A DNA stretch of 64,000 bases from Methylobacterium sp. WL119 (GTDB lineage Bacteria > Pseudomonadota > Alphaproteobacteria > Rhizobiales > Beijerinckiaceae). The notes beneath the pieces were generated by a model. The model made no database searches and was not told the origin of the DNA. It was given only the letters and a program-made list of their open reading frames with translations. The translations under genes and the position numbers were made by a program. The stretch is from NCBI RefSeq assembly GCF_008039875.1, contig NZ_VRUU01000017.1, forward strand, positions 1 to 64,000, read 5' to 3'. Below, piece after piece: positions 52,344 through 63,078 of the stretch (position 1 is its first letter; each line of letters opens with the position of its first letter).

Positions 52344-52417
52344 GCGGGCGTAGTTCAGTGGTAGAACGTCAGCTTCCCAAGCTGAATATGCGGGTTCGAT
52401 TCCCGCCGCCCGCTCCA
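52344..52417 (+). tRNA. tRNA-Gly (CCC)
   Basis: 74 nt. The acceptor GCGGGCG pairs with CGCCCGC, then T and an encoded CCA. The D arm is GTAGTTCAGTGGTAGAAC, the anticodon stem TCAGC-TTCCCAA-GCTGA gives anticodon CCC, and the T arm is GCGGGTTCGATTCCCGC. Its 3' end abuts the mobile-element region and is the likely attachment site. Confidence 0.96.
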
Positions 52418-52937: not shown

Positions 52938-53712
52938 GTCACTTTACCCCTGCGTGCCGATCTCCATGCGACCTCCTTTCTGGGAGGAGAATTTTTATTC
53001 GTATTGGACATCATCCGAGAGCAGGCAGCCCTGGCAAGTCGAGCGGGATGCACAGATCATGGAGTGCCGGCGGGCGGTCTCGACACCGTCGGACCTCCTG
53101 CGGCGCGGGATCGAGATGCGGCGATTGAAGGACGCGCTCGACCGCATGCCCCATCCGTCGTGGGGCAGCGCGCCCTGGATGTCCCGATCCGGTATCAGGG
53201 AGCGTACCTCGCTCCGTTACGTCGGGGACTACGTCGTCGAGCATCTGACCGCCGATGACCGCGCCCACCTCAGGCGCGAGATGATCTTGGCCGACGGAGA
53301 GAGGACCAATCTGTCCGCCTGGCATGACAGCCTGGGAAATTGCGGCATGAGCTCCGGCTGCGGCGGCGGGCGGAAACCGACCCAGGAGGACATGAAGGTC
53401 CTGGTCGAGGACCTGGCCGAGTTCCGCACGGATGAACGGTGCACGTCCGGTGAGTGGGGTTCGCTGATCGACGGTCTGTGCCGAACGAGGGAAGACGACG
53501 CCCGTATCCGCGGCCTGTTCGAGGAGGCCTCGGGCATCACGGACGAAATGCTGTGGGGCCTGAAGGAATCCGTGCAGGCGCACGAGAAGGCACGGGCGGC
53601 CATCGAGGCGCTCAACCAGCGGCGGGAAGAGCTCTACAAGGCGGGCACGGACGCGCCCCGGGCTCACATCAACTGGCGGCGGTTCCACCCGCACGGCGCG
53701 CCCGAGGCCTAG
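52936..53712 (+). CDS. Element hypothetical protein, 258 residues
   Basis: From ATG 52936 with weak AGGG; a start at 52966 (MRPPFWEENF) is also possible. Highly charged, helical C-terminal half (DEMLWGLKESVQAHEKARAAIEALNQRREEL). An antisense open frame of 297 residues overlaps it but is arginine- and proline-rich in the manner of shadow frames, so this strand is preferred. Its TAG lies inside the 3' end of the minus-strand gene at 53709. Confidence 0.5.
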   Translation: MSLYPCVPISMRPPFWEENFYSYWTSSESRQPWQVERDAQIMECRRAVSTPSDLLRRGIEMRRLKDALDRMPHPSWGSAPWMSRSGIRERTSLRYVGDYVVEHLTADDRAHLRREMILADGERTNLSAWHDSLGNCGMSSGCGGGRKPTQEDMKVLVEDLAEFRTDERCTSGEWGSLIDGLCRTREDDARIRGLFEEASGITDEMLWGLKESVQAHEKARAAIEALNQRREELYKAGTDAPRAHINWRRFHPHGAPEA

Positions 53713-54026
53713 AGCACGATGACCCCGCCGGGGAACGCCTTTCGGAAATCGATTGGCTCCCCGGCCGGCGGCTCCGTGCCGAAGACCGCGAGGTGCGCCC
53801 CGCGATTGACGGCACGCTGCTGATCGGGCGTCAGGGTAGCGGCCTGCACCGCGTTCCATTCGACGGTCAGGGCCGCGATCCCCGGCGTCAGAGCACCCTT
53901 CCACGGTTCAGGGTCGACCTTGTCGAAGATGACCGTTCGCGCCATGCCGCGGTCCGTTCGGATCTGCTCGGCTCGCCGATGGTCGTCGACGGTCCACCCG
54001 TTGGTGGTTATCTCGCGATTCGTCAT
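53709..54026 (-). CDS. Element hypothetical protein, 105 residues
   Basis: Distal gene of the minus-strand operon, from ATG 54026. Features: TTNGWTVDDHRRAEQI at the N-terminus and a later TLTPDQQRAVNRGAHLAVF. No family recognised. Ends four bases inside the convergent gene. Confidence 0.55.
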   Translation of the reverse strand: MTNREITTNGWTVDDHRRAEQIRTDRGMARTVIFDKVDPEPWKGALTPGIAALTVEWNAVQAATLTPDQQRAVNRGAHLAVFGTEPPAGEPIDFRKAFPGGVIVL

Positions 54027-54074
54027 GCTCAGGGCTCCCCTCGGTTCAGGATCTCGGTGACGCGTTGCTCAGCG

Positions 54075-54302
54075 TCATGTGAAGAACGACCATCCCTGGC
54101 TCGGGTCGTATGCCTCATCCTCTTCCGCGTCCGGCTGGAACCAGCCCAAATCATCCATCCGCGCCACCTCATCCGTCGTGAGTGGCGTGTCGGTGGCGCA
54201 GACGTTGAACTGGTACTGATCGGACCCGGACTTGTAGTCCGCGAGCTCAGTGAAGTGCTTTGCCAGGATGCCGAGTCCCTCGATGATGTTGGCGAGCATC
54301 AT
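54075..54302 (-). CDS. Element hypothetical protein, 75 residues
   Basis: ATG 54302 overlaps the preceding stop (ATGA). Acidic, with a C-terminal FQPDAEEDEAYDPSQGWSFF. Translational coupling to its upstream neighbour is the main support that it is real. Function unknown. Confidence 0.55.
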   Translation of the reverse strand: MMLANIIEGLGILAKHFTELADYKSGSDQYQFNVCATDTPLTTDEVARMDDLGWFQPDAEEDEAYDPSQGWSFFT

Positions 54303-54877
54303 GCCTGATTCTCCTTGCCCTGGAGGATCTCGGCGACGCGCTGCAGGTCGACGTAGCCGTCGATCAGCGTGAATGCCCGGCCGGTCGGGTTGAGATCCTC
54401 GTCCTGTTCTTCCTCCTGCAGGTCACCGAAATAGAGGGTGTCGTGCTTGGCGGATGCCTTGAACGCCTGGTGGATGGCGTCGACGGTCAGGGCGCGCCCG
54501 GGCGGAATCATCCGCTCGATCAGCACGCAATCCTCGGCCCGGTAGATCTCGTCGGCGCCGACGGCGAAGACCTGAGACGCGACGTCATCCCTGAAGATGA
54601 TCTCGGCCGGAGTCTGGTTCGGGTGGCCCCACCGTTCCGAGGTGATCCACCAGAACTCCCGCCGCTCGACGACAGGCGGCTTGGCGCGCTCGGCCTCCAG
54701 GGCCCTCACCGCGCAGGAACGGCAGCACCGGACGCGCTTCGCTCCAAAGGCCCTCCCGCCGCATACCTTGCAGGTGCCGACGTACCCCCCGGGGGACCAT
54801 CCGTGCGGTTGGAGATCGTCGGCCGTGTAGCCGTCGTCCGCATGATCCCCGTCCGTCATGCTCCATGCGTAGGTCAT
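54299..54877 (-). CDS. Element protein with a CxxC-CC-xxC zinc-ribbon-like motif, 192 residues
   Basis: Start ATG 54877 overlaps the upstream stop (54874-54876); an upstream ATG gives an artefactual extension. Near residue 36 the motif CKVCGGRAFGAKRVRCCRSC, a short zinc ribbon, is followed by WWITSERWGHPNQTP and an acidic EEEQDEDLNP. It could bind nucleic acid or protein through zinc. Function not known. Confidence 0.6.
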   Translation of the reverse strand: MTYAWSMTDGDHADDGYTADDLQPHGWSPGGYVGTCKVCGGRAFGAKRVRCCRSCAVRALEAERAKPPVVERREFWWITSERWGHPNQTPAEIIFRDDVASQVFAVGADEIYRAEDCVLIERMIPPGRALTVDAIHQAFKASAKHDTLYFGDLQEEEQDEDLNPTGRAFTLIDGYVDLQRVAEILQGKENQA

Positions 54878-55383
54878 GCTGCAGGTGGCCTCCCATGCCG
54901 GGCTGTGCCGTCGGGCCAATCCCAGCGGTGGTCGCAATCCGGCTCGAACTCGATGCCGACGATGGTGGCCTTCAGGCGGCGGACCTTCTCCCGAAACTGG
55001 TTGACCGCGTTCCTCTCCATACCGACGACGCCGGCAAGGTCGCTGAGGATCTCGTAGACCTGCCTGGAGGCCTCCTTCATCCGCTCCGGCTCGGTCATGG
55101 TCGTGGGATCAAGCTCGGGCGGAAGCACCTCCTCCAGCTTCGCCCGGCGGACTATCAGGGCGGTCAGCGAGGCGCCCACAGAGCCCTCCTTCCCGATGAC
55201 CTTCCAGTGTTCCGCGGCCTCAAGATGCGATGCCTCACCGACACCTTGGGTGTAGATCAGGACGACGTCTCCGATCTTGTGCCGATCCCAAGTCGCCTTG
55301 ACGAGAACGCCGCGACCGCGACCGGCCAGGGTATGCCAGTCGGTGGTCTTGACCCGGTAGGAATGCGTGGTGCGCTCAGCCAT
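54874..55383 (-). CDS. Element hypothetical protein, 169 residues
   Basis: ATG 55383, which overlaps the preceding stop at 55376. The N-terminal half (YRVKTTDWHTLAGRGRGVLVKATWDRHKIGDVVLIYTQG) resembles the small beta-barrel of ASCH/DUF3850-type domains, weakly. The second half is helical (SRQVYEILSDLAGVVGMERNAVNQFREKVRRLKATIVGIE) with an unusual Asp-rich C-terminus. Not assigned. Confidence 0.55.
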   Translation of the reverse strand: MAERTTHSYRVKTTDWHTLAGRGRGVLVKATWDRHKIGDVVLIYTQGVGEASHLEAAEHWKVIGKEGSVGASLTALIVRRAKLEEVLPPELDPTTMTEPERMKEASRQVYEILSDLAGVVGMERNAVNQFREKVRRLKATIVGIEFEPDCDHRWDWPDGTARHGRPPAA

Positions 55384-55735
55384 GCGCGGACCACACTGCT
55401 GGTAGGGCGGTATCTCGGGTGCGCTCAGATCCATCTGTCCAAGCCACGCCCCGAACCTCGGACAGGAACTCAGCGTGTCCGGCTGGCTTCGGCGTCAGAT
55501 TCGTCCAGAGCTCGTAGCGGTGGTGTCCGGTCGTGGGCTCATCCACGCGGACGATGTTCGCCCCGGGCCGAACGTGTTGGATGACCGCCCGCAGCGCCTT
55601 GGCATCCGCGGCGTGTCGGGCCCGCTCTATGTCGAGCTCGCAGAGGAGCTCCATCACCTGGTGGGCGAGCTCGTCCTTCGTGCGGTTCATGAGAGAGCGT
55701 CGGGTAATGCGGGAGGTGACCTCGAAGACGGGCAT
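55376..55735 (-). CDS. Element hypothetical protein, 119 residues
   Basis: ATG 55735 begins 2 bp after the RNA ligase stop. Helical N-terminus (RTKDELAHQVMELLCELDIERARHAADAKALRAVIQHV) with a coiled-coil look, then a small beta part. It may act with the ligase because of the tight coupling. Function unknown. Confidence 0.55.
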   Translation of the reverse strand: MPVFEVTSRITRRSLMNRTKDELAHQVMELLCELDIERARHAADAKALRAVIQHVRPGANIVRVDEPTTGHHRYELWTNLTPKPAGHAEFLSEVRGVAWTDGSERTRDTALPAVWSAHG

Positions 55736-55737
55736 GG

Positions 55738-56883
55738 TCAGGCGGCCTCATCGAGAGCGTTGTTGATCGCGTAGGACGGAACGTATCCGTCCAGCAGGTT
55801 CCCGTTCGGCCGGATCGTCCGAAGCATGGCCAGCCGTAGCTTCTCCCGGGCCTCGTCGGTGGTGGCCTTGCGGAAGGGAAAGAGGAACGGGCGGATCGGG
55901 TCGGGCACCTCGGACAGGCGCAGACCCAGCTCCTTATCCGAGAGGCCGGCAGCCAACTCCGCGGCAAGGCTCACGCCCGAGATCAGCTTGAGGTACCGGG
56001 CCTGCAGGACGACGGCGATCTGATCGAAGTCCGCCCAGAATTCCTCGGGCAGGTCCCGGCGCATCTCTTCGAGATCCCCGCCGGCGGCCATGACGTCCCA
56101 CACCGCCAGGGGCGTGCAGCGGCTGATCACGCCGTGGAGGCGCTTGTACTCGTCGCCCTTCACCTTGACCCTGGTGCCGTCGGCGAAGCGGATGACGAAG
56201 CCTTCCTTATCCCGGGGCAACGCCACGACCGTGGTGATCATCTCCGCGAGGGATATGAACGCATGGCGCTGGACGACCTTGAAGGCGAAGTGGCTCGCCT
56301 CCCCGAGATCCATGAGCTCGGCGAAGGGCACCTCGCGCCCGGACGCGTCGTAGGCTGCCAGCAGCGACAGGCCCGCCTCCGGGTACCGGACGACGATGAC
56401 GTTCTCCGGGTAGATGGCCTCGAACAGGTAGGTCGTCCCGGGCACCAGGGCCGAGGTGTCCATCGCGTCAAGACGCGCCTGCGCCCACACAGCCTGGGAG
56501 GAATCGAATGCCCCCTTGGTCGCGGTGCGCCACCGGCCGGAGCCAGCGTGGTGGAAGGCGATGATCAGGGAGCCGTCGAGCTTCTCGAACGCCTCGAACG
56601 GCAGATCCGGGACGACGGCGCCCCGCTCGCCGAGGTTGAAGAACTTCGGGAACGGCGTCGCGACGACGGCGCCGGCGTCGTAGTCCACGATCAGGCCGCG
56701 GGCGAGCAGCGAGTACCGGTCCCAGCCGTGGTCGTACACGCAGCGCTGCGTGTAGCAGTAGATGAGTAGCCCGGTCGCCCGGCACATCTTCCGGCTGACG
56801 AAGCCGGCGGCCCGCGCTTTCTCCAGGCCGTCGATCAGGTCGTTGAAGGCCATGGCACGGGCGGGGTGGATGATCGTCCGCAT
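55738..56883 (-). CDS. T4 Rnl1-type RNA ligase (RnlA family)
   Basis: 381 residues from ATG 56883 behind AGGGGAGG; longer in-frame extensions upstream are non-protein-like. Signatures of the covalent nucleotidyltransferase superfamily: motif I KLDGSL with Lys101 as the AMP-accepting lysine, TKGAF downstream, motif IV-like EGFVIRF (near 229) and motif V KVKGDEY. The segment ARGLIVDY then PFPKFFNLGE before motif I is diagnostic of the Rnl1 family, which repairs cleaved tRNA in phage infection. No partner PNKP (end-healing kinase/phosphatase) is visible. The gene is the third member of an eight-gene overlapping operon. This is the firmest enzymatic call in the element. Confidence 0.85.
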   Translation of the reverse strand: MRTIIHPARAMAFNDLIDGLEKARAAGFVSRKMCRATGLLIYCYTQRCVYDHGWDRYSLLARGLIVDYDAGAVVATPFPKFFNLGERGAVVPDLPFEAFEKLDGSLIIAFHHAGSGRWRTATKGAFDSSQAVWAQARLDAMDTSALVPGTTYLFEAIYPENVIVVRYPEAGLSLLAAYDASGREVPFAELMDLGEASHFAFKVVQRHAFISLAEMITTVVALPRDKEGFVIRFADGTRVKVKGDEYKRLHGVISRCTPLAVWDVMAAGGDLEEMRRDLPEEFWADFDQIAVVLQARYLKLISGVSLAAELAAGLSDKELGLRLSEVPDPIRPFLFPFRKATTDEAREKLRLAMLRTIRPNGNLLDGYVPSYAINNALDEAA

Positions 56884-56885
56884 GA

Positions 56886-57332
56886 TCAGGACCTCCCCTT
56901 CGCCGCGGCGGCGCGCTTGGCCGCACGGTTGATGCCCGGGGGAATCCGCATCGCGTTCGGGGTGACCTTCCCGCGCCGGATGCGGTCGGCGATCTTGCCC
57001 CAGGTCTTGAGCTCGTCGGGCGTCAGGCCCTCGGCCGGCGGCGGGGGCGTCGTGGTCGTCACGCCGCGCAGCACCGCGAGCTCGGACTCGGTGGCGACGC
57101 GGAGCCGGATGCCCGCGACCTTCACGGGCGGCCATGCCCGGGGACGGCTGTTGTCGGCCGGGGCGTTGAAGGCGCGCTCGATCTTGCCGACCTTGGGATC
57201 GGCGAGGATCTGGTCGAAGGTCGCCGCGTCCTCGACGTACATGCCGGGCGGCATCGAACCGGGCAGGACCGCTTTCGTAACGGGATCGAGATCGGAAGCC
57301 ACGTAGTGCGGCTTGAGCCAGGTCCTGCCCAT
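56886..57332 (-). CDS. Element hypothetical protein, 148 residues
   Basis: ATG 57332 shares one base with the upstream stop (TGATG). Composition is basic and proline-rich in the C-terminal half (PPPAEGLTPDELKTWGKIADRIRRGKVTPNAM, then KRAAKAAAKGR-type tail), as in nucleic-acid-associated proteins. N-terminal MGRTWLKPHYVASDLDPVTKAVLPG. It ends 2 bp before the RNA ligase start. Function unknown. Confidence 0.6.
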   Translation of the reverse strand: MGRTWLKPHYVASDLDPVTKAVLPGSMPPGMYVEDAATFDQILADPKVGKIERAFNAPADNSRPRAWPPVKVAGIRLRVATESELAVLRGVTTTTPPPPAEGLTPDELKTWGKIADRIRRGKVTPNAMRIPPGINRAAKRAAAAKGRS

Positions 57333-57661
57333 CACGCTGCCTCCTCGACGCGCTGAGGCGGGCACTTGGCCTCCTCGGAAGCGATGGTGATCTCGATGCC
57401 GTCGACCTCGACACCGAGAGCGGCGAGTTCCTGATCGAGATCGGCGATCCTGGTGCGAAGCTCGGCGCGCATGGCCCGGCGGACGGCCTCGACCATCTTG
57501 TCGTCGAACCGGTACCCGAACAGGGTCAGCGCCCCTCCGAAGGGGCCGTAGCTGTTGCCAGGCCCAATCGACGTCTCGCGCCCGATGTCGACGTATGCTG
57601 TGACCCAATCGCGACGGCGCTTAACCAGGTCGTTGGCGAGCGTGACTTCCGACAGCTTCAT
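57332..57661 (-). CDS. Element hypothetical protein, 109 residues
   Basis: First gene of the minus-strand operon. ATG 57661 is at the edge of the noncoding region. Contains DLVKRRRDWVTAYVDIGRETSIGPGNSYGPFGGALTLF and a C-terminal acidic helix (ELRTRIADLDQELAALGVEVDGIEITIASEEAK). No motif assigned. Confidence 0.6.
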   Translation of the reverse strand: MKLSEVTLANDLVKRRRDWVTAYVDIGRETSIGPGNSYGPFGGALTLFGYRFDDKMVEAVRRAMRAELRTRIADLDQELAALGVEVDGIEITIASEEAKCPPQRVEEAA

Positions 57662-58116: not shown

Positions 58117-58737
58117 ATGAACACTTACATCCGGATCGACACGCCGGCCTACGGCAGCATCTACGCCGTCGCCACCGAGGAGGAGGCCCTCGACCTCTTC
58201 GCCAAGGCCGCCGGCTACAGGGATTACGCCGAGCTCGCCGCCACCCTCGGCAAATCCGTCGAGGAGGCTCGGGACGAGCTCGTCATCTCTCGCGTCACGG
58301 CCGACGACATCGTGCGGGACATCGTCGAGGAGGGAATCGAGAACGAGGTCATGGATTCCTGGAAGGTCGATGAGATCGCCGAGTTGAACGGGCTCGACCG
58401 GGGACCGCTCGTCGCGGCGGCCGACGCCATGCAGACGCGGCGCATGCTCGAAAACTACAACGCCCAGTGCACGATCATCGCCCAGGATCGCGTCCGGCGC
58501 GCTTCCAGCCTCGATGAGGTCTACGCCGAACTTCTGTTGGTCCGCCGGTACTTCGGCGCCGACGGCCTGAGCAAGTGGCTGTATGATACCGGCAGCGGCG
58601 AGGTGCCGACCTTCGGCCCTGCACCTGTCGACGTGGGCAGTCTCATCTCCTGGGATGCCGAGCGGGTCATCGTCAGGGACGAGAATGCGCCCGACTTCTC
58701 GATCTGCATCGAGTCCCGGCTGGACGTCGCCGCCTGA
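58117..58737 (+). CDS. Element hypothetical protein, 206 residues
   Basis: ATG 58117 follows ACGAGGGA. Acidic, with TEEEALDLFAKAAGYRDYAELAATLGKSVEEARDEL near the start and FGADGLSKWLYDTGSGEVPTFG later. No motif recognised. First gene behind the palindromic promoter, so likely regulated by a repressor. Confidence 0.6.
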   Translation: MNTYIRIDTPAYGSIYAVATEEEALDLFAKAAGYRDYAELAATLGKSVEEARDELVISRVTADDIVRDIVEEGIENEVMDSWKVDEIAELNGLDRGPLVAAADAMQTRRMLENYNAQCTIIAQDRVRRASSLDEVYAELLLVRRYFGADGLSKWLYDTGSGEVPTFGPAPVDVGSLISWDAERVIVRDENAPDFSICIESRLDVAA

Positions 58738-58803: not shown

Positions 58804-59322
58804 ATGAAGATCATCCTGAAATCCGTGCCCGATCAGGCCGAGGGGATAGCCGTCGGCACGCTCGACGGATTCCCACTCTACTATGTCGGCCGGACCGCTC
58901 ACGTGGACGGGCGGGCCCTGCAGCACGGCGATATCGCCGAGGCCATGATCGACGCCGTCGACTACGCGGCCGCGCAGGTCCTTGGGGGCGAGTGGTCGAA
59001 ACCGCTGGCTTTGGTCACCGGCCTGAACGCGCGGACGTGCAACCGCGACAGGATCAGGCAGTGGGGCCTGCCGCCGTGGGTCCTAGTCTTGCTGGGCAGG
59101 GCATCCGAGCATCGTCATGCCCGGGCGCTGGGCTTCATCCTGCAGGGCGCCGCCATGGTGTACCGCGATGTCGGTCCATTTTCCGATGAGGAGAAACGGG
59201 ACCGGATCGGGGAGATCACCGATCCACTTGCGTTCATGGCGAGCCTGTCGAAGACCGCCGACGAGATGGTCGCCTACGCCCGACGCGAGCGCGAAAAGGC
59301 GGCCGCCGCCCGGGGCGCGTAA
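58804..59322 (+). CDS. Element hypothetical protein, 172 residues
   Basis: ATG 58804 behind GGAGGA; an upstream ATG 58750 is less likely. Ends in a charged helix (AYARREREKAAAARGA). Middle region LVTGLNARTCNRDRIRQWGLPPWVLVLLGRASEHRHARALGFILQGAAMVYRD. Unassigned. Second gene of the plus-strand operon. Confidence 0.6.
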   Translation: MKIILKSVPDQAEGIAVGTLDGFPLYYVGRTAHVDGRALQHGDIAEAMIDAVDYAAAQVLGGEWSKPLALVTGLNARTCNRDRIRQWGLPPWVLVLLGRASEHRHARALGFILQGAAMVYRDVGPFSDEEKRDRIGEITDPLAFMASLSKTADEMVAYARREREKAAAARGA

Positions 59323-59401
59323 CCGAACCTTAAGACACGACCTCTAGTCTCGCCCACCTGCCGTCGGTCTTCACCGGCGGCCCGGACCAGGAATCCCGAT
59401 C

Positions 59402-61003
59402 ATGCGACAGTCCCCCCGAAACGGGGTGGGCGCGCCGTCTCTGCGCGCGCTGCTCCGCGGCACCCCCATCCATCGCGGCAGTCATGCCCGCCAGCTTCAG
59501 GCCGAGATCCTCTCGACCGTCCCGGGAATTTTCAGCGCCGGCCGGGCCGAGCTGATCCGACAGTGCGCGGACTCGCCGCTTTTCCACGAGCTCGTCGTCT
59601 CCCTCTGGAAGTCGGCTATCGCCGCCCTCTCGATCAGGCCGGATGAGGCCGCCAAGGAGGGCCGGTTCATCACCGCGATCTATGAGGCGTGGCTCGTCCT
59701 CAGGCGGACTGTGGGCGTGCAGTCCGCCATCGATGCCGATCTCGATCTCTCGTTCCACGACCGCCAGGAACAGGAGATGCTGGATCTGGTCACGCTTCTG
59801 CTCGCCGACCTCGGCGAGGGCGTCGCCCGCATGGCGTACGTCGATCTCGCATGGCGCCATGCACGCGAGCGTGAGCCCGACCAGGACGACCTGCTGTACG
59901 GCGCCATCGGCGCGAGCCTCTACGCCGGCGAGAGTTGGCGCTTCGAGGGCAAGCGCCCTACCGGCATGCCATCCGGTTTCGCCCTTCAATGCATCGAACT
60001 CGGCAGGCAGGCCTTCACGGGCACGCTCCCGCAGCCCGAGCCGGCATGGGCGAAGGAGGCCAAGGCCGCGTCCGGCCTCCGCGCCATCGAGGCCGCACGT
60101 ATCGACGCCGGACCGTCGCTCTTGGTGTTGGCGTCCGTCGACCACCTTCCCGGGTCCGCCACCGGTGGCGAGGGCCGCCCCGGCGGCAGCGTCGGTACGA
60201 CGGCCCGGGCCGAGTGGGCCCCGATGGCGGGCAAGCGCCTCCCCCTGGTCGTGGTTCCCGATCTCGCCCGAGTGAAGAGGAGGCTCGTGCGGGAGTTCCC
60301 GGACTGCGAGCGGATCATCGACGCGGTGCTGGCGCCCATCGCGGGACGGCAGTTTGCCTACCTGTCGCCCTTCCTGCTCGTCGGGGCGCCGGGTTCGGGC
60401 AAGAGCCGCCTCGCCCGCCGGATCGGGGAAGAGCTCGGGCTCGCCGTCACGGTCTACGCGTGCTCGGGGGTCAGCGACTCCTCGATCATCGGAACCAGTC
60501 GAATGTGGAGTACGGGTCGCGCATCCGTCCCGCTCCAGGCGATCCGTCGCGCGGGCGCCGCCTCGGTGCTGATCGTCCTCGACGAGATCGCACGCGCCGG
60601 CACCCGCACCGACAACGGCAAGCTCACCGACGGCGTCCTCGGGCTGACGGAGCGGGAGACCGCCCGGGCGTACCAGGACCCCTACTTGGAATGCCCGGTG
60701 GATCTGTCGGCGGTCTCGTACGTCGCTACGGCGAACACGGTGGACGGTCTCGATCCGGCGCTCCTGTCCAGATTCCGGGTCTTCGAGATGCCGATGCCGA
60801 CGGCGCGGTCCCTGCCGGTCCTGGCCCGGGCCATCGTTGCCGAACTCCGGGTCGAGCGCGGCCTCGATGCGGTGTGGCTCCCCGACCTGACGCCCGACGA
60901 GCTCGAAATGATCGGCTCGCACTGGTCCGGAGGCAGCGTCCGCGTCCTGCAGCAACTCGTGGAAGTTGCCGTGGACGGTCGCGACCTCGGCCAGGCCAAC
61001 TAG
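59402..61003 (+). CDS. Lon-like AAA+ ATPase without a protease domain
   Basis: 533 residues. The N-terminal ~320 residues are unassigned helices. The AAA+ module begins with LLVGAPGSGKSRLARRIGEEL (Walker A near residue 327), has VLIVLDEIARAG (Walker B near 390), then YVATANTVDGLDPALLSRFRVFEMP (sensor 1 and the Arg finger), and a C-terminal helical lid VRVLQQLVEVAV. The FIATAN-type sensor and LLSRF resemble Lon, but the serine-lysine protease domain is missing. It could be a remodelling ATPase of phage/element origin. Operon with the small genes that follow. Confidence 0.72.
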   Translation: MRQSPRNGVGAPSLRALLRGTPIHRGSHARQLQAEILSTVPGIFSAGRAELIRQCADSPLFHELVVSLWKSAIAALSIRPDEAAKEGRFITAIYEAWLVLRRTVGVQSAIDADLDLSFHDRQEQEMLDLVTLLLADLGEGVARMAYVDLAWRHAREREPDQDDLLYGAIGASLYAGESWRFEGKRPTGMPSGFALQCIELGRQAFTGTLPQPEPAWAKEAKAASGLRAIEAARIDAGPSLLVLASVDHLPGSATGGEGRPGGSVGTTARAEWAPMAGKRLPLVVVPDLARVKRRLVREFPDCERIIDAVLAPIAGRQFAYLSPFLLVGAPGSGKSRLARRIGEELGLAVTVYACSGVSDSSIIGTSRMWSTGRASVPLQAIRRAGAASVLIVLDEIARAGTRTDNGKLTDGVLGLTERETARAYQDPYLECPVDLSAVSYVATANTVDGLDPALLSRFRVFEMPMPTARSLPVLARAIVAELRVERGLDAVWLPDLTPDELEMIGSHWSGGSVRVLQQLVEVAVDGRDLGQAN

Positions 61004-61012
61004 GGGGCGATC

Positions 61013-61255
61013 ATGCGGCATCGCTCCCACGCCCCCGTCCTCGACTACTTCTTGGAGATCCTCAGGGCGCACCGCGCCTCGGGACGTCTCCACGCTCAAG
61101 TCGCCCACGGGATGGAGGCCTACGTCCTGCACGTCACGCGGCTCGCAGACGAGCATGTCCTCACCGGCGTCGAGGCCCTCGTGGCGGCCAATCGCGCCGT
61201 GACGCTGGCGCTCGCACTCCCGCAGCTTCCGGAGGATCGCCATGAACCGCGGTGA
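61013..61255 (+). CDS. Element hypothetical protein, 80 residues
   Basis: ATG 61013 follows GGGGGCG, 9 bp after the AAA+ ATPase stop. His-rich N-terminus (MRHRSHAPVLDYFLEILRAHR). Overlaps the next gene by 14 bp. Function unknown. Confidence 0.5.
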   Translation: MRHRSHAPVLDYFLEILRAHRASGRLHAQVAHGMEAYVLHVTRLADEHVLTGVEALVAANRAVTLALALPQLPEDRHEPR

Positions 61256-61472
61256 CCTCGCGACGGCGGCAGCGCGGATTCGCGCGGCCTGGGTGCCCGG
61301 TCGGGAATGCCGGCTCCGTCCCCGCCGGGCCCGGCTCTACGTCCTGAAGGTCGCCCGGCTCGATGCGGACGGCCTGATCCGTCCGGAGCGGGCCGAGGCG
61401 GTCGCGGCCCGGGCGCAGGTCCTGGCCGAGGAGATGGAGGGCGCCCGATGCCCGACGTCTACCGAAATTTGA
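61242..61472 (+). CDS. Element hypothetical protein, 76 residues
   Basis: ATG 61242 behind GGAGGATCG. Basic, alanine- and arginine-rich helix pair (GDLATAAARIRAAW, then RPERAEAVAARAQVLAEEM). Overlaps its neighbours by 14 and 25 bp. Function unknown. Confidence 0.5.
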   Translation: MNRGDLATAAARIRAAWVPGRECRLRPRRARLYVLKVARLDADGLIRPERAEAVAARAQVLAEEMEGARCPTSTEI

Positions 61473-61777
61473 CCCGAGCCTGCTGGTCCGTCCGCGTCAA
61501 AAATCGGGTCGTCGGCCACGTCCCCGCGCTGGTTCTCCGGGACGTCGCGTTCATCGTCTCCCTCCCGGGCGTGCGTCGGATTCGGCTGCGGCAGGCCCGC
61601 GAAGTCATCGCCTACGCCCGGGGCGTCCCATCCGAATCCGGCCTCCCCAACGGCGCGCTGCAGGTGCGCTTCTGCCCCTACCGGTCGACAGATTTCACGC
61701 TTCCCGATTGCAGCCCGATCCGCGCGGCCGCCGTCGCCTCCTTCCTCCCAGACGGCTCGTGCTGGGCCGTCCTTTGA
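61448..61777 (+). CDS. Element hypothetical protein, 109 residues
   Basis: ATG 61448 behind GGAGGGC, inside the end of the preceding gene. The block VYRNLTRACWSVRVKNRVVGHVPALVLRDVAF and RIRLRQAREVIAYARG recurs in small hypotheticals of alphaproteobacterial temperate phages, as I recall, which supports a phage origin. Function unknown. Confidence 0.6.
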   Translation: MPDVYRNLTRACWSVRVKNRVVGHVPALVLRDVAFIVSLPGVRRIRLRQAREVIAYARGVPSESGLPNGALQVRFCPYRSTDFTLPDCSPIRAAAVASFLPDGSCWAVL

Positions 61778-61792
61778 TCCGGGGATACCGTC

Positions 61793-62185
61793 ATGCTCCA
61801 CGTCGTCGTCTCATCCCTCCTGTTCCTGCTCGCCGGCGCGGCCGCGGTCGCCGACGAGGGTCCATGGTCCCAGCCGCGGTGGTATGTCGAGACGACGGAG
61901 GCACACGGGCCCTTCACGCACACCACGGGGATGTCGGTCTCCCAGAACGCCAAGGCCGGCCGCGATGACGTCGAGGTGATGTGCCAGGTCACCGACGTGC
62001 GGGCTCCCCGGGATGCCATCGTCGTCCGCCGAAGGGGTAAGGCCTTGTTCCGCCAGGACGCGTGGTGCGGGGACGCCGGTGACCTGGGGTCCTGGTGCGT
62101 GGCCTTGGAGGAAGGGGCGGTCATGACGTGGTACGGGAAGACGATCTGCGCGGGCGGGCAGGCGACGTTCTCGACGGGCGACTGA
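61793..62185 (+). CDS. Small secreted element protein
   Basis: 130 residues with a signal peptide MLHVVVSSLLFLLAGAAAVADEG. The mature part has four cysteines (VMCQVTD, AWCGDAG, SWCVALE, TICAGGQ), suggesting disulphides. Secreted proteins of this sort occur in temperate phages as lysogenic conversion or superinfection factors; that role is only inferred. Followed by the terminator hairpin at 62197. Confidence 0.55.
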   Translation: MLHVVVSSLLFLLAGAAAVADEGPWSQPRWYVETTEAHGPFTHTTGMSVSQNAKAGRDDVEVMCQVTDVRAPRDAIVVRRRGKALFRQDAWCGDAGDLGSWCVALEEGAVMTWYGKTICAGGQATFSTGD

Positions 62186-62259: not shown

Positions 62260-63078
62260 TTACGCGGCGTTCCCGAACAGGTCCCGCGGCCCCTCGGGCA
62301 TCATCGTGTGCCTCTGCCACTTCTTGGCGAGGTACTGGAGGCCGTAGGGCGTGACGAAGGTCTGGGCCCGGGCGACGTCGCCGTCGAGGAACGGATGGAC
62401 GGTGAAGATCGCCATCTTGACGAAGGCCGCCTTAGGCATGAGCTCGCGCCCCTGGTAAAACAGGTAGGTCCCCTTCAGCCAGTCGACGAATGCCTTGGGC
62501 GGGGCGCCGATGGACCGGGCGGCGTTCTGCAGGCCGTAGTGCCCGTCGGCGTTGGCGAACCGGTCGAAGAACTCGACCTTCGGGGCGGCCGTGGCGAGCG
62601 CCGATTCCGACACCGTCAGGGCCTGGGAGATCTGGGCGTTCTCGGCCTTGAGGGCGAGGTTCGCTTCGGCGTACCCGAGCAGGACGACACGCAGGGAGGC
62701 CGGGTCGTTCGGGTCGAACGGCGGCGGCTGGCGGCGGCGAAGCTCCTCCTCCATGGCGTTGAAGGCCGAGATGTAGCCCACCTTCCAGATCGTGGCCGCG
62801 CTGCCGTTGAACCCCATCACCGCCAGGGTGAAGCCGTCCCTGTCCATGAGGCAGTAGCGCTCCTGCCGGACGCCGCCGTTGGGCATCCGGGTCGGCGCCG
62901 ATGTAAACGCAAAACTGCGTTCACATGCGCCGGGCAGGGTCTTCATCAGGCCATCGATGGCCCGGAGGACGTCGGCGTGCCGCTTGCCGAACACCTTCGC
63001 CAGTTCCCGGCTGTCGGCCCGGACCTGTCCGTCGATGACGCTGACGATGGGATCGGTCGACGTGACGAGGGCGCTCAT
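62260..63078 (-). CDS. Rha/KilAC-type phage antirepressor
   Basis: 272 residues from ATG 63078, sharing two bases with the upstream stop (TGATG). N-terminal Rha domain (VIDGQVRADSRELAKVFGKRHADVLRAIDGLMKTL, RYCLMDRDGFTLAVMGFNGSAAT), then a charged hinge and C-terminal KilAC/ANT domain (APKVEFFDRFANADGHYGLQNAARSIGAPPKAFVDWLKGTYL...AQTFVTPYGLQYLAKKW). Antirepressors of this kind relieve lysogenic repression or interfere with host regulation. A clear phage marker. Confidence 0.9.
   Translation of the reverse strand: MSALVTSTDPIVSVIDGQVRADSRELAKVFGKRHADVLRAIDGLMKTLPGACERSFAFTSAPTRMPNGGVRQERYCLMDRDGFTLAVMGFNGSAATIWKVGYISAFNAMEEELRRRQPPPFDPNDPASLRVVLLGYAEANLALKAENAQISQALTVSESALATAAPKVEFFDRFANADGHYGLQNAARSIGAPPKAFVDWLKGTYLFYQGRELMPKAAFVKMAIFTVHPFLDGDVARAQTFVTPYGLQYLAKKWQRHTMMPEGPRDLFGNAA

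Follow-up and report, generated by a model that had tools for sequence, protein, structure and literature searches.

Lon is a textbook protease, and several described ATPases come close to the protein treated here. BrxL, from the BREX system, is a Lon-named AAA+ protein that lacks a conserved Lon active site, binds DNA, carries an N-terminal domain with no clear homologues and ends in a Lon/RadA-like domain (PMC10164562). The anti-phage ATPases of the IetA/IteA type are AAA ATPases paired with another enzyme, and Thermus virus P23-45 encodes a 270-residue Lon-type AAA protein named “chaperone/ATP-dependent lon protease” (A7XX79). Combining profile searches, structure prediction and comparison across congeneric genomes, our work here describes a protein that has the motor of Lon and differs from each of these systems. 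With a probability of roughly 0.45, we read it as a protease-less Lon-type unfolding motor that belongs to an operon of its own, carried by Methylobacterium islands that are tRNA-associated and satellite-like or prophage-derived, and whose most likely use is conflict. The motor is of a known kind, whereas its protease-less, diversified, operon-bound island form appears new, no description of it having been found in the openly licensed PMC literature.

The window analysed is a stretch of 64,000 nucleotides from Methylobacterium sp. WL119, on a contig (C87) of 69,215 bases in a genome of 5,705,445 bases and 261 contigs. The features that matter here are the following:

52344-52417, + strand: tRNA-Gly (ccc), a probable island boundary
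55738-56883, - strand: T4 Rnl1-type RNA ligase in a divergent leftward operon, an occasional neighbour
58117-58737, + strand: first gene of the rightward operon, 206 aa, with no family match and no cluster partner
58804-59322, + strand: k2, a 172-aa partner with a predicted helix-turn-helix (HTH)-like region (residues ~65-88), directly upstream of the AAA gene
59402-61003, + strand: protease-less Lon-type AAA+ protein, 533 aa (Pfam, NCBIfam, PDB profile, AlphaFold2, 77-homologue alignment)
61013-61255, + strand: k1-type small helical protein, 80 aa, sub-cluster c8
61242-61472, + strand: second k1-type small protein, 76 aa, sub-cluster c2, overlapping the preceding gene
61448-61777, + strand: k4, 109 aa, PF25735 (Phage_L5_gp82; Pfam, 51.8 bits against a cut-off of 27)
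61793-62185, + strand: k21, 130 aa, with an N-terminal signal-like stretch (by eye) and a conserved C-terminal end
62260-63078, - strand: Rha/KilAC-type phage regulatory protein, part of the island setting (Pfam, PHROG)

The 59402-61003 frame opens with ATG, and its 533-aa product has two parts, a variable helical N-domain (residues ~10-236) and a Lon-type AAA+ module (~241-533), the identity of the latter being firm. Pfam returns AAA_5 (41.3 bits, residues 324-458) and AAA (41.4 bits), and the top NCBIfam match is lon, at 57.5 bits against a cut-off of 608 and confined to residues 325-464. A profile built from 30 homologues matches LONP1 and PDB Lon chains at E 1.9e-36, in an alignment to LONP1 that spans the Lon-like F-D-x-Y-L-x-x-P-V-D-L-S. 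The likeness to Lon (LonA/LONP1) covers the entire AAA+ module: the AlphaFold2 model (mean pLDDT 83.4, pTM 0.56) matches Lon with Z ~22 and an rmsd of 4-5.5 Å over ~285 residues, in a model range of 245-533 that runs to the last residue. The phage protein A7XX79 likewise matches the model (Foldseek E 9.3e-7, rmsd 4.7 Å over 241 columns) but is without a comparable N-domain. In an alignment of 77 homologues K334, E395, N445 and R457 are invariant, D394 is present in 76 (the single exception being E) and R514 in 76 (the remaining row being a gap); which of these six residues serve as sensors or arginine finger is presumed from the Lon alignment. Together with the profile and structure matches, this near-invariance bears out the first-pass annotation, which had called the Walker A and B, sensor and arginine-finger residues intact and Lon-like. 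Position 369 is aromatic in all 77 homologues (W in 72, Y in 5) and falls, in the profile alignment, on the Y of HRRTYVG in LONP1, which we take to be the pore-loop 1 residue that grips the polypeptide. Retention of an aromatic residue at this position favours a protein-threading motor, and ATP-driven protein unfolding is its likely activity.

What separates the protein from Lon lies outside the motor. It terminates after the AAA+ lid, at the AAA/protease border, so that the Ser-Lys protease is missing, as had been noted from the sequence at first reading; Lon_C (PF05362) is absent from the locus, its sole match in the genome being the housekeeping lon on contig C206. A Lon N-terminal substrate-binding domain was not found in the 533 residues by Pfam at E up to 1. 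The protein thus has the AAA+ module of Lon and lacks both the protease and the N-terminal domain, and, unlike Lon, it belongs to an island operon of its own with k2 and small proteins. A relation to MoxR, the possibility that had been raised against the original proposal, was not borne out, and MoxR identity was rejected (AAA_3 at 12.2 bits, under a cut-off of 27). The nearest named relatives come from Methylobacterium and Methylorubrum, and no record in the phage and plasmid collections searched covers 80% of the query. The same genome holds three more paralogues whose similarity is limited to the AAA half.

The N-domain is all-helical in the AlphaFold model and matches no Pfam, PHROG or NCBIfam family. 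It had been described as 320 residues without a recognisable domain; the lack of a match stands but the length does not, since the Lon-like module starts at around residue 241-245 and leaves ~235 residues without an assignment. Among the matches listed in a fold search with the full-length model, all were to AAA domains. Sequence change is quicker in the N-domain than in the motor: in 231 pairwise comparisons between k2-type loci the motors average 57% identity, the N-domains 30% and k2 37%, against 22% for shuffled N-domains. Profile comparison of the N-domains of k2 sub-clades yields 97.7% for A-B, 100% for A-C and 48% for B-C, which points to related N-domains in these three and thus, at least there, to fast divergence of a single domain. 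The N-domain of sub-clade D matches the megaplasmid group alone (74.5%).

A census at E 1e-28 or better found 129 AAA loci spread over 73 of 111 congeneric genomes, and their conserved partner is k2, which is absent from the first-pass annotation. Always upstream and on the same strand, k2 lies within 2.5 kb of the AAA gene at 55 of the 129 loci; 56 of the 71 k2 matches in the 111 genomes adjoin an AAA gene, and k2 is present at 28 of the 29 best AAA matches. Its predicted fold (pLDDT 90.5) has strands at the N-terminus followed by helices, with R77 kept in all 47 homologues and R83 in 46 of them. The middle part resembles HTH proteins (NatR antitoxin, Z 4.4; ClgR, 4.3; C.Esp1396I, 4.1) in weak matches with which unrelated long helices tie; from these and a motif seen by eye, k2 is predicted to be HTH-like. 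A viral fold search with the k2 model gave no match at E 0.001.

k2 is exchanged next to near-identical motors. Loci L045 and L046 are 97% identical in the motor and 93% in the N-domain, with k2 at 26%; L052 and L053 are 92% identical in the AAA protein and 88% in its N-domain, with k2 at 31%. In five locus pairs the continuous DNA similarity sets in no more than 13 bp from the start codon of the AAA gene, a figure that takes the L046 start 39 bp further in, and L052 and L053 additionally have a 122-bp stretch in common where k2 begins; three other pairs stay similar through k2. The AAA start codon is thus a place where recombination borders often fall. N-domain and k2 co-vary only loosely (r 0.29), a finding that speaks against a simple lock-and-key relation between the two.

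Upstream of the AAA start, within 130 bp, the motif [CG]TTAA[CG] (STTAAS) is found at 17 of the 22 loci of the discovery set in which k2 was called, seven copies overlapping the end of k2 and ten lying in the spacer proper. It occurs at none of 30 loci without a called k2, among which L056 does have a k2 that the gene caller missed, and upstream of k2 at none of 22, with a background of 0.023 per 130 bp. When 25 further loci were scored upstream of the AAA gene, two more being left out of the count, just 3 were positive, and upstream of k2 the motif was found in 8 of the further loci, with a background of 0.077. The motif was therefore dropped as a general operator, and may instead serve a single clade as a promoter element; with that failure, control of operon expression is an unproven candidate role for k2. 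The window copy lies at 59329-59334, and in several spacers the motif stands ~10 bases before a TAG-containing stretch.

The gene order in the window is k2-AAA-k1-k1-k4-k21, and neighbour clustering over 59 loci (12 duplicates removed; 52 with a called AAA of the same family) confirms that the small downstream genes, which had been pointed out at first reading, recur at the loci of relatives. The recurrent neighbours are k1 (~78 aa, 24 loci), k2 (~178 aa, 23), the metallophosphoesterase k3 (20), k4 (18), k6 (~199 aa, 12) and the secreted-looking k8 (11) and k21 (4). In other members of the operon family the k21 slot holds a different protein, k8; the two are unlike secreted-looking families in the same operon position, with a common C-terminal S[ST]GD end. 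k6 (up to ~200 aa) has conserved KEKFGTLRWY-like and CExCGxPG motifs, one tested copy being without a Pfam match, and adjoins AAA relatives at L037, L039, L040, L042, L060, L078, L080, L083, L088, L090, L100 and L103. At L057 and L058, over ~10.2-19 kb, a k2-type AAA operon is followed by a metallophosphoesterase, and UmuC-like, OLD-like and DUF2235-like proteins were read by eye from the sequence of the same loci.

More distant relatives of the motor have enzymes as neighbours. In Mesorhizobium composti and a Rhizobiales genome (loci L079, L081 and L082), the Lon-type AAA gene is followed by an FtsH-like AAA, an M41 peptidase and a metallophosphoesterase, and the FtsH-like AAA/M41 region behind the Lon-type AAA has these coordinates:

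L079, 11619-13079: FtsH-like AAA/M41 region
L082, 13229-13780: FtsH-like AAA/M41 region

The M41 peptidase scores 61.9 bits in L082, and the L079 copy, as called, begins past the HEAGH motif. An FtsH-like AAA with a separate M41 peptidase behind the Lon-type AAA is a split-protease-like arrangement. On plasmids of Microvirga, Bradyrhizobium and Polaromonas the AAA gene has an annotated metallophosphoesterase as its direct neighbour or no more than 1.5 kb away. This recurrence of a protease-less motor beside a peptidase or a phosphoesterase suggests that its product may be handed over to partners.

Genes of known defence systems occur near some of these loci. For LmuA (Lamassu) the 111 genomes gave 22 strong matches, after two weak ones were set aside, and five of the 22 lie 1.8-15.3 kb from an AAA locus, one of which (G024) is k2-type; under uniform placement each would have a chance of ~0.7%, giving a binomial P of 3e-7, although accessory genes cluster anyway. 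Among 85 neighbours picked by eye towards accessory genes, PADLOC recognised LmuA, LmuB, type II restriction-modification (R-M), DndC and CapP models, one protein each. The sample having no matched control, this link to defence genes is suggestive only. The AAA protein itself has IetA as its best PADLOC match, at 22.4 bits over 43 residues (322-364) around Walker A, and nothing meaningful was returned for the operon proteins. The match to IetA is thus limited to the Walker A region, and the genes at 61013-61777 and 61793-62185 contain no protease-like family in Pfam that could correspond to an IetAS-type protease partner; it is the FtsH-like neighbour in Mesorhizobium L079 that matches IetA at 84.8 bits. 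The first-pass view of such ATPases as cores of defence or anti-defence systems therefore has some backing as an association (LmuA within 16 kb in 5 of 22 cases, and the PADLOC neighbours), while the role itself is one that we infer for a protein whose own best match stands at 22 bits.

We suggest that the AAA+ subunits would assemble as a ring whose N-domain may capture a fast-changing target protein, and that the motor would unfold this target or extract it from a complex. Having no protease, the motor would then release the product or pass it to locus-specific partners, for which the small helical and secreted proteins are candidates in the window, and in relatives either a metallophosphoesterase or the pairing of M41 peptidase and FtsH-like ATPase; the HTH-like k2 may control expression. 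The most likely use of such a machine would be on behalf of the island or its host against competing phages or mobile elements. A more specific form of this proposal is that the locus represents a new island-borne conflict system, in which the diversifying helical domain would recognise invader proteins, the HTH-like regulator would be exchangeable, and metallophosphoesterase, M41 peptidase with FtsH-like ATPase, or small helical and secreted proteins would act as interchangeable effectors; this we hold to be possible but doubtful.

The island setting bears on whether the motor serves conflict or the life cycle of the island, two roles that we regard as about evenly balanced. The scan for tRNA genes covered 23 AAA loci, the window included, and placed one 2.8-7.8 kb upstream with matching orientation at 13 of them; at the other ten the tRNA lies elsewhere (one) or is absent from the examined stretch (nine, two of these ending at contig ends). 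The upstream tRNAs are of varied kind (Gly, Met, Arg), and their orientation means that the 3′ end faces the operon. Sequence to the left of the window's tRNA is partly matched in all 59 congeneric genomes searched. A search for an attachment site in the examined sequence of 14 loci found no exact tRNA-end repeat longer than 13 bases, and one match of 13 bases. In the window the island carries the Rha/KilAC protein and an HTH protein, genes that adjoin the operon, and an endolysin follows on the contig past the window. A set of 94 proteins, drawn from the window and five other islands, contains exonuclease, Holliday-junction resolvase, helicase, endolysin, spanin and DNA-polymerase-like families; the 25 PHROG families listed, out of 28, and the 11 Pfam families include no terminase, capsid or integrase. 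One Tad2-like protein (Thoeris anti-defence) and one VbhA antitoxin match were also seen in the set formed by L045, L047, L048, L049, L059 and the window. We read these islands as prophage-derived or satellite-like.

On such an element the motor could instead act on a protein of the island itself or of a helper phage, remodelling a repressor or a replication or packaging factor, for example at induction. This tentative alternative also fits the regulatory neighbours, the lysis genes and phage-type nucleases, and the phage family PF25735 of k4. It is harder to reconcile with relatives that reside on plasmids too, beside R-M-like, toxin-antitoxin or repair genes, and with N-domain diversification, for which a purely internal function has no need. 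Terminases, moreover, are seldom near the AAA gene in the two families covered: GpA_ATPase lies within 18 kb at 2 loci of the 111 genomes, and PHROG 2 within 60 kb at none among the 26 matches listed on AAA contigs, the window contig ending at 69215. The IMG/VR record G099 (behind locus L121) does have terminase, portal and head genes, with its AAA block at the far end, across a tRNA-Met from the phage structural block; the intervening tRNA suggests that the AAA block may be a separate element and that the viral contig may join two.

A less probable reading takes BrxL as the precedent and has the Lon-type motor work as a ring on DNA, not protein. The DNA binding described in PMC10164562, by a Lon-named protein without a conserved Lon active site, and the predicted HTH-like nature of k2 would suit it. 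It is opposed by the aromatic residue at the Lon pore-loop position in all 77 homologues and by the structural match to Lon itself at Z 22; moreover, the C-terminal Lon/RadA-like domain that this source gives for BrxL is missing from a protein that ends at the AAA+ lid, and PADLOC returned no BrxL match.

Turning to the leftward operon, the layout in the window is indeed divergent, with leftward genes at 53709-57661 and rightward genes from 58117, and the RNA ligase 2.5 kb away is the only T4 Rnl1-type ligase of the genome; this could suggest an RNA-repair system of which the AAA protein is the ATPase. In G111 a ligase 80% identical to that of the window again stands divergent next to an AAA gene, of a different subfamily. 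Ligase matches occur in 13 of the 111 congeneric genomes, and across the 129 AAA loci a full-length ligase is found at two (the window and G111), while three more have in that position a gene that matches its first ~83 residues only. The divergent arrangement that the first-pass annotation had reported is thus real in the window and not conserved across loci, and the co-occurrence of ATPase and ligase that it had proposed as a check failed. So rare a pairing marks the ligase as a passenger of the divergent region and not a conserved partner, and a shared repair system is very improbable. Least probable of all is a functionless, decaying truncated Lon copy, as the missing protease and the internal stop of paralogue C17 might suggest, a reading that is refuted by conservation: many genomes keep an open frame of comparable length, the motor residues are invariant across 77 homologues and the operon neighbours are kept.

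Returning to the unfolding motor, a large family in which the motor is retained, the protease lost and the N-domain diversified would mean, if this account is true, that the Lon motor has been taken over by mobile elements as an unfoldase module, an idea for whose direct testing W369, the N-domain and the k2 swaps provide handles.
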